A program made the translations under genes and the position numbers. Source: Aureispira sp. CCB-QB1 (GTDB lineage: Bacteria > Bacteroidota > Bacteroidia > Chitinophagales > Saprospiraceae). Taken from it: a DNA stretch of 42,331 nucleotides. The stretch is from NCBI GenBank assembly GCA_945870185.1, contig CAMBRK010000034.1:1-42331 (forward strand), in the 5' to 3' direction. A model generated the notes under the pieces. The model was not told the DNA's origin and did no database searches. It saw only the letters and a list, made by a program, of their open reading frames with translations. Below are positions 1-34,972 of this stretch, in pieces (position 1 is the stretch's first letter; every line of letters starts with the position of its first letter).

Positions 1-183
1 ATATTATAGGTGAAGAGACTATTGCCGACGCAGTTTTAGATCGCTTAGCCCACACATCATATAAAATCGAATTAAGAGGAGATAGTTTAAGAAAAAATCG
101 GTAATTTTGTCACTCCTAAGCGGCATAAACCACCAAATCATCTGGGGGGTCAATATGTCCAGAATAGGGGGTCAGTTTAAACA
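1..183 (+). mobile_element. IS21-family insertion sequence, right end (partial)
   Basis: The end of istB is followed by about 80 nt carrying two related G-rich repeats, GGGGGGTCAATATGTCCAGA (from 144) and GGGGGTCAGTTTAAACAGAA (from 167), spaced about 23 bp. IS21-family ends usually carry such multiple terminal repeats as transposase-binding sites. The element probably ends near 183 in ...CA, but the exact boundary is uncertain because the left end and the target duplication lie outside the window. It sits inside the maturase gene on the opposite strand. Confidence 0.72.
3..104 (+). CDS. istB: IstB-like ATP-binding protein of IS21 family, C-terminal end
   Basis: The frame enters from the left edge and stops with TAA at 102-104. 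The 33 visible residues include AILDRL-type text (ADAVLDRLAHTSYKIELRG) and end in GDSLRKNR, which matches the conserved C-terminus of IstB helper ATPases (pattern DRL.H....I.L.G.S.RK). IstB assists the IstA transposase by binding and remodelling target DNA. The Walker motifs lie outside the window. No competing identity looks plausible for this tail. Confidence 0.8.
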   Translation: MIGEETIADAVLDRLAHTSYKIELRGDSLRKNR

Positions 184-442
184 GAATATCCATTAGTTCA
201 TCTTCTAAATGATTTTTAATAATTGTCTGATTTATATCCGTTTTTAAAATTTCCTTTTTTTCAAGAGATTTTCTGAAATAAATTGAGCACAGTTCTTGAT
301 TTAAATATGAATTAATTATTTCAAATAATTCAAAATTATCTTGTATTCTCTTAAATTCCAAGTTATAATATGAAAGCCAATCAAAAATTACATTAGTAGT
401 TTGATCTTTGCTTTCAGAAATAATATAAATAATTTTACTCAT
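116..442 (-). pseudogene. ATP-grasp peptide maturase (GRASP-with-SPASM type), 5' fragment cut by IS21
   Basis: The ATG at 442 gives MSKIIYIISESKDQTTNVIF, a hydrophobic beta-strand start followed by DWLSYYNLEFKRI. This is the typical N-terminus of the ATP-grasp maturases of grasp-with-spasm peptide systems in Bacteroidota. A later SIYFRKS fits their conserved aromatic-Y-R-K segment. Full-length relatives are around 300 residues or more. Here native sequence stops after about 88 residues, and the last ~20 residues (from KLTPYSGH) are translated IS21 end sequence. The ATP-binding and catalytic parts are absent, so the product should be inactive. It lies downstream of, and on the same strand as, the two precursor peptides. 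Family assignment is from remembered pattern; truncation by the IS is seen directly. Confidence 0.6.
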
Positions 443-571
443 TTCCAATACAGAATTGACACAAATAAATAATTAAAGCAAGTAGATTAACCTTACTTTA
501 ATTATTTATCTTGTATTTTGATTTAAAATATTTAAATAATTTTTAAGCAAATATCCTACAGTCGAACGTAG

Positions 572-769
572 TTATTTATCATCACATTGATCTTCATAAT
601 AATTACCCCCTGTCCACCAACCCATAGAGTGAGTGGTGGTACCATCAGGCCACCTACAAATTGAATCATAATTGACTTTGTCCTTACCACCGATAATACC
701 AGATAATCCAACATTTTCACTTTCCAGTAACTTGTAGGATTCAAAAGAATTCAATAATAAATCTTTCAT
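572..769 (-). CDS. Double-glycine leader precursor peptide 2 (putative graspetide/RiPP)
   Basis: A 65-residue peptide. The leader runs from MKDLLLNSFESYKLLE to the GIIGGK cleavage-type motif near residue 28. The core is rich in W, Y, T, D and contains RWPDGTTTH and a C-terminal DQCDDK. It shares leader (MKD.LL..FE..L), PDG.TH, two cysteines and the C.DK terminus with the neighbour at 868-1053, so the two are paralogous precursors. The T and D/E-rich core suits side-chain ester or amide formation by an ATP-grasp enzyme, but no modification can be read from sequence. The adjacent maturase is truncated, so modification may no longer occur from this locus. Confidence 0.65.
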   Translation of the reverse strand: MKDLLLNSFESYKLLESENVGLSGIIGGKDKVNYDSICRWPDGTTTHSMGWWTGGNYYEDQCDDK

Positions 770-867
770 TTGTTTACATTTTTTTATTTTTAAAAATCAT
801 TTAATTAATAATTAAATAATACCATTATTAAATTTAACATTATAAATTCTGAACAAGATTAATACAT

Positions 868-1053
868 TTATTTATCATAACAAGAATCAGTATAATGAGT
901 AAACTTATAAGAATCTCCCCATTCATGAAATACATGAGTGCGGCCATCAGGAAGATTTGTAATTGTAGTACAAGACCACTGCTTACCGCCAACTATTTTT
1001 TCGTTGTTGGGTAAAATAAATTTTTCAAAATCAGATAACAAAACATCTTTCAT
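868..1053 (-). CDS. Double-glycine leader precursor peptide 1 (putative graspetide/RiPP)
   Basis: A 61-residue peptide and the first gene of the leftward locus. The leader MKDVLLSDFEKFILPNNEK ends in IVGGK at residues 20-24, a Bacteroidota double-glycine export leader. The core has CTTITNLPDGRTHVF and ends DSCYDK, aligning with the second precursor at PDG.TH and C.DK. GG leaders are normally cut by peptidase-containing ABC transporters; none is visible here. The promoter and the GC-rich leader at 1087-1194 lie just upstream. The start is clear because the leader motif begins at this ATG. Confidence 0.68.
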   Translation of the reverse strand: MKDVLLSDFEKFILPNNEKIVGGKQWSCTTITNLPDGRTHVFHEWGDSYKFTHYTDSCYDK

Positions 1054-2400: not shown

Positions 2401-3071
2401 TTGACTTTCGGTCTTATTGGAAATTTTTGTTTGTCTTTACAATTTTAAAAAAGTCCAATTCAAATAAATAACAACGGGTATAATTTAATAACGTAAAAAT
2501 ATAAAAATTATGATTACAAAGTATGGGAAAGTGATATTTTTTTATAAATATCAATTGGACATATCGAAGATTACTTTGAAGTACTTATCATCAAAAAGAC
2601 ATTTCAAAGGTTTTGCGATGAAACAATCCAATAATTATTTGATATTGACCAAGCCAAAGACGTCTGCCAAAACACATTATGGGAGACCAATAATACTAAA
2701 TGGGTTGTGGCGAAAGCTTGATGAAAGGTCCTAGTCACTTTATGGACCTTGGTGAAGGATAAACGACCTATACTTTACAGCTTGTGAATGTTCCTTAGCT
2801 GTAAGGGTGATGTCACGAAGTCTTATGGTCTAGTCACAAAGCATTAACGAATCTTCCTGAAGACTTTTGGTGAGGTCCATAAGAGTTTATGAACTGTCGC
2901 AAGTTATTTTTGCCTTATTCGATAAGCTTTAGGTCAGGTCGTAAAGTCTTAACCTTCATCCATATAAGCTTACCGAGCACGCCAATTTGGTTTTTGATAA
3001 GTCAAATACCTTATACGCAGGTACAAAAGAGTTATCGAATAGTCCTTTAAGCTTTTGGAGTACTATCAGTA

Positions 3072-17329: not shown

Positions 17330-18361
17330 TTACCTAAAAATGGCAAAACAGTCGTTGTAATCTTGCTTTTTAGGATATAAATAATCAAAATTTAATACTA
17401 TACCAACTTCGTGGCTACCACCTTGCTCTAACCCTAAACTGGACATGGTCAAGTCAAAACTATATGTTATTTTAAAAAAATCCTTTTTGACACCAAATGA
17501 TGTGATTAAAGCATCACCATTTTGTGAAGTTTGTCGATACCAAACTCCACCATGGATTTTATTAACTGACAAGTATGCTCCTAAATTTATTTGATTAAAG
17601 TCACGTTGCCTTTGAAACATGATATTTGGAGATATAAACGTAGCATCTTTATTTTTATTGCCTGGTCGAAGTAAAATTTGACTGCCAGCATGTAAGGAAA
17701 TACGCGTTGGGACAGATGTTAACGATGCATCTCCTGTGTTTTCGCTACCTATAAATTGTAAAGATGGGGTATTTAGATTTTTTAAACTGATACCTACATA
17801 ATATTGTGGATTGTAAAGTAAGATACCTGCACCTATTCTTAAATTATTTACAGATAAATCTTCCGGAACTGCTTCTCTACTGGGAAATGGGGTGCCACCT
17901 GGCGATACAGGACCTGAAATAGGATCCAAGGCGTCACCAAATTGCAGTTTTGTCCAGTCCAAAGATGTATTGGTTATACCAGCTTCTATTCCACTTTTAA
18001 TAAATAGATCTCCTTTAATTTTTATCCTATAACTATAGTAACCTGTAAAGTTTGTAGTTTTGAGAGTACCGTCTCCAGCATTGTCAGTCAAGATACTAGC
18101 TCCGAACCCACTTTTTAGTCTGTTGGAATATTGATCATATGCTACCGCATAGCTTGTATATATATTTCCTAAAGCGGGCCATTGGTTTCTGTAGCTTAAC
18201 TGTATAAGAGGCCCGCGACTGGTACCTGCCAATGCTGCATTTAACTGGAGATTTGCATGATAAAACTGACTAAAAACAGGATCTTGAGCACTGATGGGTA
18301 AATAGCTTATAAATACCCATATTGCGGTAATAACTAATGTCCTATTTATCAAATGTTCCAT
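17330..18361 (-). CDS. PorP/SprF family type IX secretion system membrane protein
   Basis: A 343-residue protein from the ATG at 18361; an upstream ATG would add eight residues. The signal peptide ends near ISAQ, directly followed by DPVFSQFYHANLQLNAALAG, the defining PorP/SprF start. LSYRNQWPALGNIYTSYAVAYDQ, GFGASILTDNAGDGTL and repeated amphipathic strands fit an outer-membrane beta-barrel of about 14 strands. PorP is a core T9SS protein near the PorKN ring, while SprF-type paralogues help secrete specific adhesins; these cannot be told apart here. Same strand as gldJ, divergent from porU. Confidence 0.88.
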   Translation of the reverse strand: MEHLINRTLVITAIWVFISYLPISAQDPVFSQFYHANLQLNAALAGTSRGPLIQLSYRNQWPALGNIYTSYAVAYDQYSNRLKSGFGASILTDNAGDGTLKTTNFTGYYSYRIKIKGDLFIKSGIEAGITNTSLDWTKLQFGDALDPISGPVSPGGTPFPSREAVPEDLSVNNLRIGAGILLYNPQYYVGISLKNLNTPSLQFIGSENTGDASLTSVPTRISLHAGSQILLRPGNKNKDATFISPNIMFQRQRDFNQINLGAYLSVNKIHGGVWYRQTSQNGDALITSFGVKKDFFKITYSFDLTMSSLGLEQGGSHEVGIVLNFDYLYPKKQDYNDCFAIFR

Positions 18362-18564
18362 CCGTTTAAAAGTTAAAATTATCAAATCACCTGTTATTTA
18401 TCATTTGTAAAACAATACAACAGCAAAGATGGGCGTTTTATGTCAAATTTAAGTTCATTTTAACATTTTTTTGATTAAATGGTTATCTAGATTGCCAACT
18501 CATTTAAAATGCTAATCTTTTTTGGAAGAACCTTGTTTCAATTTTCAAACACCTTAGAACCCAT

Positions 18565-34865: not shown

Positions 34866-34877
34866 CCAAATCACCGA

Positions 34878-34972
34878 TCACCAGAACTTGTGCCGCTGTA
34901 AGCGGTATCACCGATCACAAGATCACCAAATCACCAGAACTTGTGCCGCTGTAAGCGGTATCACCGATCACC
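34878..34972. repeat. Two direct copies (42 bp, period 53) of a REP-like hairpin repeat
   Basis: Copies at 34878-34919 and 34931-34972 are identical and contain AGAACTTGTG, a CCGCT-gta-AGCGG hairpin and TATCAC. The same AGAACTTGTG-stem-TATATCAC layout occurs at 1522-1551 and 1668-1697 with a different but paired stem. The unit may also act as a transcript end between two converging genes. Confidence 0.75.

Follow-up and report, generated by a model that had tools for sequence, protein, structure and literature searches.

In graspetide biosynthesis, the ATP-grasp enzyme installs lactone or lactam bonds; the C39-peptidase ABC exporter (PCAT) cleaves at the Gly-Gly (GG) site and exports the peptide. 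In the GRASP-with-SPASM loci, the ATP-grasp peptide maturase (TIGR04192) is found with a SPASM-domain partner (TIGR04193). Carter et al. (2026) (PMC13097080) probably describe these loci as their group 14. The partner is named a radical SAM enzyme in the relevant text of Makarova et al. (2022) (PMC8939145), and the corresponding text of Carter et al. describes a SPASM-domain containing protein, of a kind "often associated with" rSAM enzymes. We found no open-access paper that links graspetides to insertion sequences (IS).

The window analyzed here is a stretch of 42,331 nucleotides from Aureispira sp. CCB-QB1, and it is the entire contig CAMBRK010000034.1 (C34) of a draft assembly of 168 contigs and 4.9 Mb. 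At its left end lies a GRASP-with-SPASM-type locus that is cut by an IS21-family element. The same assembly contains a complete locus of this type on another contig (C82).

Results

A peptide locus cut by an IS21-family element

On the minus strand of C34, peptide 1 (...IVGGK) is followed by peptide 2 (...IIGGK) and by an ATP-grasp gene that starts from the ATG at position 442 and breaks off between positions 193 and 192. Table 1 lists the features. The initial annotation had described two paralogous double-glycine-leader peptides and an ATP-grasp gene in order on one strand, and all of them were present. It had also reported a maturase cut after about 88 codons and continued as IS end sequence. 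The truncation was confirmed, but the codon count was not: the listed open reading frame (ORF; 116-448) extends into IS sequence, the final IS base is 192, and the gene's own share is 83 whole codons.

The IS terminus reads ...AATATCCA. The last 33 codons of IstB lie at positions 3-104, and PF01695 matched positions 3-98 with 27.8 bits (cut-off, 24.1). As C34 stops inside the repeat, the window contains no more of the element than its istB end. The same end recurred at 7 other contig ends with 99-100% identity, and the flanks diverged past base 192.

Two tandem repeats were also seen in C34, one at 1425-1782, to the right of the peptides where genes are few (unit of 146 bp, 2.5 copies), and one at 34870-34971 (unit of 53 bp, 1.9 copies, 96% matches). 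Positions 1085-1210 were considered as a structured RNA and rejected, as the Rfam match was at chance level at best and the folding was not better than that of shuffles.

Table 1. Positions of the features at the C34 locus and of related features in the same assembly, with the IS21 pairs and their target duplications
Feature	Location	Strand	Basis or duplication
istB end of IS21-family element	C34, 1..192	+	PF01695 match; same end at 7 other contig ends
N-terminal 83 codons of putative GRASP-with-SPASM ATP-grasp peptide maturase (pre-ATP-grasp region), IS-cut	C34, 193..442	-	TIGR04192; 58-sequence profile
Putative precursor peptide 2, 65 aa, leader end IIGG, second Gly-Gly in core	C34, 572..769	-	ORF; paralogy to peptide 1
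Putative precursor peptide 1, 61 aa, leader end IVGG	C34, 868..1053	-	ORF; matches in relatives; leader profile
Split C39-VKOR-thioredoxin gene	L021 (C82), 17433-18524 + L129 (C91), 85-696		IS21-split
IS pair	C113-C61		TAGTG
IS pair	C12-C85		ACTATGA
IS pair	C110-C151		GTTAA
IS pair	C82-C91		ATTGGG
IS pair	C49-C79		ATTGA
IS pair	C8-C90		AAAAA (weak)

The ATP-grasp fragment matches the GRASP-with-SPASM family

TIGR04192 was the sole NCBIfam match of the 83-codon fragment up to an E value of 10 (E = 0.0012, 18.2 bits, profile positions 1-60 of 318), while Pfam gave no match up to the same E value. The score is to be read against a fragment of 83 of about 320 residues, the curated cut-off of TIGR04192 being 230 bits. 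From the fetched loci we then built a profile with 58 ATP-grasp ORFs, keeping duplicates and including the gene of C82. The fragment scored 28.9 bits with this profile, and the best of 1000 shuffles (997 listed) scored 9.4 bits. TIGR04192 itself matched (E ≤ 1e-5) in 31 of 199 same-family genomes, the source genome included, and in none of 14 control genomes. Outside the source genome there were 47 such places, of which 43 were covered by the 40 stretches that were fetched. By eye, the relatives usually show a W-[YH]-R-R-G stretch, which is IYFRKS in the fragment.

As far as sequence comparison goes, the profile results support the assignment of the C34 fragment to the GRASP-with-SPASM type of maturase, and the family named in the initial annotation was kept. 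The RimK-like ATP-grasp domain of the C82 enzyme begins at residue 129. The 83 residues left in C34 are without this domain and therefore cannot act.

Two double-glycine-leader peptides precede the fragment

Peptides 1 and 2 are 42% identical in alignment and have in common PDG[RT]T, a D-x-C-x-D-K end and the GG site. We searched with peptide 1 the ORFs of stretches of up to 19.5 kb around ATP-grasps of this kind. Twelve ORFs outside the window matched at E < 1, and 11 of them lie within about 1.6 kb upstream of a same-strand ATP-grasp of this kind, a nearness that is partly due to the choice of the stretches. The remaining match is in L092.

A leader profile was built from 27 hand-chosen sequences among 70 candidate peptides of relatives. 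It scored peptide 1 at 14.5 bits, which none of 824 scored shuffles reached (1000 made), and the precursor of C82 at 10.0 bits, which none of 819 scored shuffles reached. Peptide 2 was not recognized (0.1 bits, with 28 of 655 scored shuffles as high). Because the leader profile alone fails for peptide 2, its reading as a precursor rests on the 42% identity to peptide 1. Predicted GG-leader precursors are thus found beside the ATP-grasp gene, peptide 2 by paralogy only.

Among 298 genomes drawn from the family, the peptide pair had no credible match in the 297 others. Besides the source genome, the search returned three weak matches (E values of 0.002-0.008). The best of these was considered as a RiPP locus and rejected, since there were no RiPP genes among the surrounding ORFs, and the frames that contain the remaining two are long (310 and 947 aa).

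The same assembly holds a complete cassette

The set of genes on C82 consists of a VKOR-thioredoxin gene, a precursor, an uncharacterised gene, the ATP-grasp gene, a 41-aa ORF, and the SPASM, PCAT and HlyD genes. The ATP-grasp, SPASM, PCAT and HlyD frames are open at full length. The ATP-grasp scored 224.5 bits against TIGR04192, slightly under the cut-off of 230, and the SPASM gene scored 272.3 bits; the 41-aa ORF occupies the position that a small LPL gene has in other loci. In the stretches chosen by TIGR04192 alone, 40 ATP-grasps have a length of at least 250 aa. In 29 of them the following gene on that strand is SPASM, and 8 continue with PCAT and then HlyD, many of the contigs ending soon after. 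When all loci were taken, including those chosen by PCAT, the ATP-grasp was followed by SPASM in 43, PCAT in 21 and HlyD in 20 of 57. The gene order of the C82 type agrees with branch 5 as set out in the pertinent passages of Makarova et al. (2022) (PMC8939145).

Next to the C82 cassette, the same IS21 has a further copy that splits a C39-VKOR-thioredoxin gene and is flanked by a 6-bp duplication, ATTGGG. Domains were checked for this one pair of IS ends: on the C91 side of the split, the C39 domain scored 17.2 bits, under its cut-off of 22, and on the C82 side VKOR was over its cut-off. Since this neighbouring gene is also split, both peptide loci of the genome have been hit by IS21.

Ends and target duplications of the IS21 copies

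A C39 peptidase search led to C91, whose first 146 bases are the other (left) end of the element. The left end occurred 8 times (139-146 of 146 bases), along with a 37-bp remnant and a weak C123 match. The right end occurred 8 times over a 70-base query, along with two remnants and four weaker matches. Solo IS-end remnants without an element were seen at C100:14531-14575 (45 bp), C2:71427-71447 (21 bp) and C123:570-606 (37 bp). A search with the right-end sequence missed all left ends, because the two ends of the element differ; it returned right ends, along with remnants and weak matches.

At each of the 16 ends, the assembly breaks off within the IS, and the interior of the element is absent from it; PF22483 (IstA) was not found in the assembly. 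IstB (PF01695) was over the cut-off at the ends of C12, C34 and C113. At the left IS end of C160, an ATG-started frame, MSTIKQLLSLHS, resembles by eye the start of IstA. Also by eye, the IS copy of C160 seems short of one internal repeat unit that is found in the copy of C41, so that the copies are perhaps distinguishable. When 100 relatives were searched for the IS, diverged matches outside the source genome were found in 3 genomes, and the whole element was not obtained from the G009 matches that were fetched.

Matching the flank ends of the 8 right and 8 left ends gave six right/left pairs with target duplications of 5-7 bp (Table 1). Five of the six pairs have the pattern of a split gene, with open frames of at least 49 aa that read into the IS at one end and away from it at the other; C12-C85 has no frame over 18 aa. 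The initial annotation had placed an IS21-family element at the locus, and both PF01695 at the end of C34 and the short duplications of the six pairs support that family, as judged from the sequence.

The right ends of C34 and C144 and the left ends of C41 and C160 were unpaired. The IS copy of C34 had no target-duplication partner among the 8 left ends. Frames run into the IS at C34 (93 aa) and C41 (73 aa) and away from it at C160 (307 aa), and the C144 end has no frame over 18 aa. If C41 and C144 were mutual partners, they would represent a second IS21 copy without a target duplication, and the missing duplication of C34 would not be unique.

The likeliest far side of the IS is a half exporter

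The initial annotation had expected the rest of the maturase, and any SPASM gene, beyond the IS. Neither expectation was borne out in the assembly. A search with TIGR04192 up to an E value of 10 found the gene of C82, the C34 fragment and a weak, 12.3-bit match on C93, and no second full gene; with TIGR04193 (E ≤ 1), the only gene found was that of the C82 cassette. A search for the C39-PCAT type returned one full gene (C82), a C39 fragment of another gene on C91 and, on C135, a weak match that contains stops. Binning errors are possible in this draft.

On C160, a frame opens at the base adjoining the IS and reads away from it. This frame is a PCAT of 306 aa that corresponds to residues 424-729 (to the end) of the PCAT of C82, with 69% identity and no gaps. 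It is followed by a DUF2683/YoeB pair and then by an HlyD gene 47% identical to that of C82. The pair, of the DUF2683/YoeB toxin-antitoxin type, lies at L142 (C160) 2546-3007, between the 3' half of PCAT and HlyD.

The direction of the C34 gene is carried on by just one of the two free left ends, C160, whose frame reads away from the IS; that of C41 reads into it. Read from C34 through the IS to C160, the order would be the peptides, the start of the ATP-grasp gene, the right IS end, the left IS end, the 3' half of PCAT and HlyD, which is the order and orientation of the family. This link is present in no contig. Among the matches listed, the closest PCAT outside the genome to that of C160 (L167, 72%) is in an intact GRASP-SPASM-PCAT-HlyD locus. 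In the fetched loci of the nearest PCATs (best 80 of 514, some stretches short), GRASP and SPASM were both found in only 17 of 79, so that a PCAT of the C160 type is no proof of such a cassette.

The SPASM partner protein

CX3CX2C is the radical-SAM motif. We took the 49 ORFs that matched the SPASM protein of C82 at E ≤ 1e-10 and dropped the 7 that were shorter than 310 aa or identical. In the 42 distinct partner proteins that remained, from loci between L021 and L245, CX3CX2C was found in none, and C-terminal cysteines were common. PF04055 was not found in the SPASM protein of C82 at E ≤ 0.1, nor was it among the 14 Pfam families matched by 15 aligned relatives at E ≤ 1. SPASM (PF13186) was found in 8 of these 15. 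The label of a SPASM radical-SAM partner, which the initial annotation had used, is thus doubtful.

An AlphaFold2 model of the partner from L180 had a mean pLDDT of 79.1 and a pTM of 0.72, with a weak C terminus. In the model, the first 75 residues form four strands and then three helices, after which strands and helices alternate, and we read these 75 residues as RRE-like. A search of the sequences of solved structures with the SPASM alignment gave one match at chance level (E = 0.12). The partner of the GRASP-with-SPASM ATP-grasps may be an RRE-SPASM iron-sulfur protein and not a radical-SAM enzyme.

Discussion

We consider it probable that C34 carries the front remnant of a second GRASP-with-SPASM (graspetide-type RiPP) cassette, that about 3.2 kb of this cassette was lost via recombination between two IS21 copies, and that its far side is on C160. 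In its working form, the cassette would have encoded two leader peptides, an ATP-grasp and a SPASM-domain protein with an RRE-like front that would link core side chains (ester or amide), and a PCAT that would cut after Gly-Gly and export the product with HlyD. Two same-orientation copies of one IS21 would have inserted in the ATP-grasp gene at codon 84 and in the PCAT gene at about codon 423. Recombination between such same-way copies would have left a single IS copy without a target duplication, in keeping with the finding that C34 and C160 share no duplication. The deleted part, 3221 bases when sized from the spacing on C82, would have held the C-terminal part of the ATP-grasp gene, the small gene, the SPASM gene and the N-terminal part of the PCAT gene. 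What remains would be peptide 1, peptide 2, 83 ATP-grasp codons, the IS21 copy, the 3' half of PCAT, the YoeB-type toxin-antitoxin pair and HlyD. By its gene content, such a remnant cassette cannot make a product by itself. Since no second TIGR04193 gene was found in the assembly at E ≤ 1, the C34 locus is predicted to be a remnant and not a working member of the family.

Alternatively, the cassette may have been broken twice and not deleted, with two IS21 copies still flanking an existing middle (the C-terminal part of the ATP-grasp gene, SPASM and the N-terminal part of PCAT) that is missing from the assembly. At all 16 IS ends the assembly breaks inside the element. The contigs appear to be sorted by length, the smallest seen among the 20 last-numbered contigs had 3070 bases, and none of the 18 last-numbered contigs fetched was shorter; contigs under about 3070 bases thus seem absent from the assembly, and a missing short contig is possible. 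However, the middle would be expected to have 3221 bases plus about 145 IS bases at each end, just over the apparent size cut-off. The left and right IS ends balance, 8 and 8, and no further TIGR04192 remainder or TIGR04193 match was found. We therefore regard an undeleted middle as unlikely, and deletion is preferred because the middle and its IS ends, about 3.5 kb together, would be expected in the assembly, if by a margin of only about 0.5 kb.

It is also conceivable, but more doubtful still, that the far side of the IS of C34 is C41 or a sequence outside the assembly, and that what remains on C160 comes from an unrelated exporter locus. C41 is likewise unpaired, the linkage of C34 to C160 is our inference, and 62 of the 79 nearest PCAT loci (best 80 of 514) were without the GRASP and SPASM pair in the fetched stretch. 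On the other hand, the frame of C41 enters the IS from the other side, and the frames at its junction do not look RiPP-like by eye. The PCAT and HlyD of C160 are paralogous to those of C82, the nearest outside relative of this PCAT among the matches listed sits in a GRASP-with-SPASM cassette, and the genome has no other notable truncated TIGR04192 or TIGR04193 gene. That the 83-codon fragment is a chance ORF or belongs to another ATP-grasp family, as its TIGR04192 score far under the curated cut-off and its IYFRKS stretch might suggest, is extremely improbable given the shuffle test and its place after GG peptides, relatives of which lie next to such ATP-grasps.

That the rest of the ATP-grasp gene is missing beyond the IS had been named beforehand as a result that would refute the initial reading, and as far as the assembly shows, this rest is absent. 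The evidence from the neighbourhood keeps the family assignment and points to deletion, so that the initial reading is partly supported.

If deletion is correct, the C34 locus would catch a RiPP cassette in decay: IS recombination would have removed its enzymes and left its precursors intact, in a genome that also has a complete paralogous cassette. The stranded precursors might even still be matured in trans by the C82 cassette, one enzyme set serving a wider precursor pool, with an RRE-SPASM partner that is not a radical-SAM enzyme, although we think this rather unlikely. The suggestion that the C82 enzymes serve the C34 peptides is a tentative one, made because of the same leader pattern and the paralogous exporter. 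Should the deletion be right, the genome would provide a natural test of whether precursors can be served in trans. More generally, "IS-interrupted" clusters at contig ends can be traced by pairing IS ends through target duplications, and SPASM partners without the radical-SAM motif would bear on the annotation of this whole group of graspetides.

Compared with known systems, the IS21 element of this genome has the IstB C terminus at one end, the TG...CA termini and the repeated GGGGTCA-type motifs of its family, with 5-7 bp duplications for 6 pairs of the 8 left and 8 right ends, and it differs in that its interior is absent from the assembly and the C34 copy is without a duplication partner. 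As in other GRASP-with-SPASM graspetide loci, the GG-leader precursors of C34 precede an ATP-grasp of the family on one strand. In contrast to them, it retains only the precursors and 83 ATP-grasp codons, and its peptide pair (PDG[RT]T, D-x-C-x-D-K end) stands without a credible match in 297 of the 298 genomes. The C82 cassette and the C160 remnant have the same kinds of genes, with PCATs that are 69% and HlyDs that are 47% identical. The kind of system is ordinary; its history, as preserved at the C34 locus, can be read unusually well.
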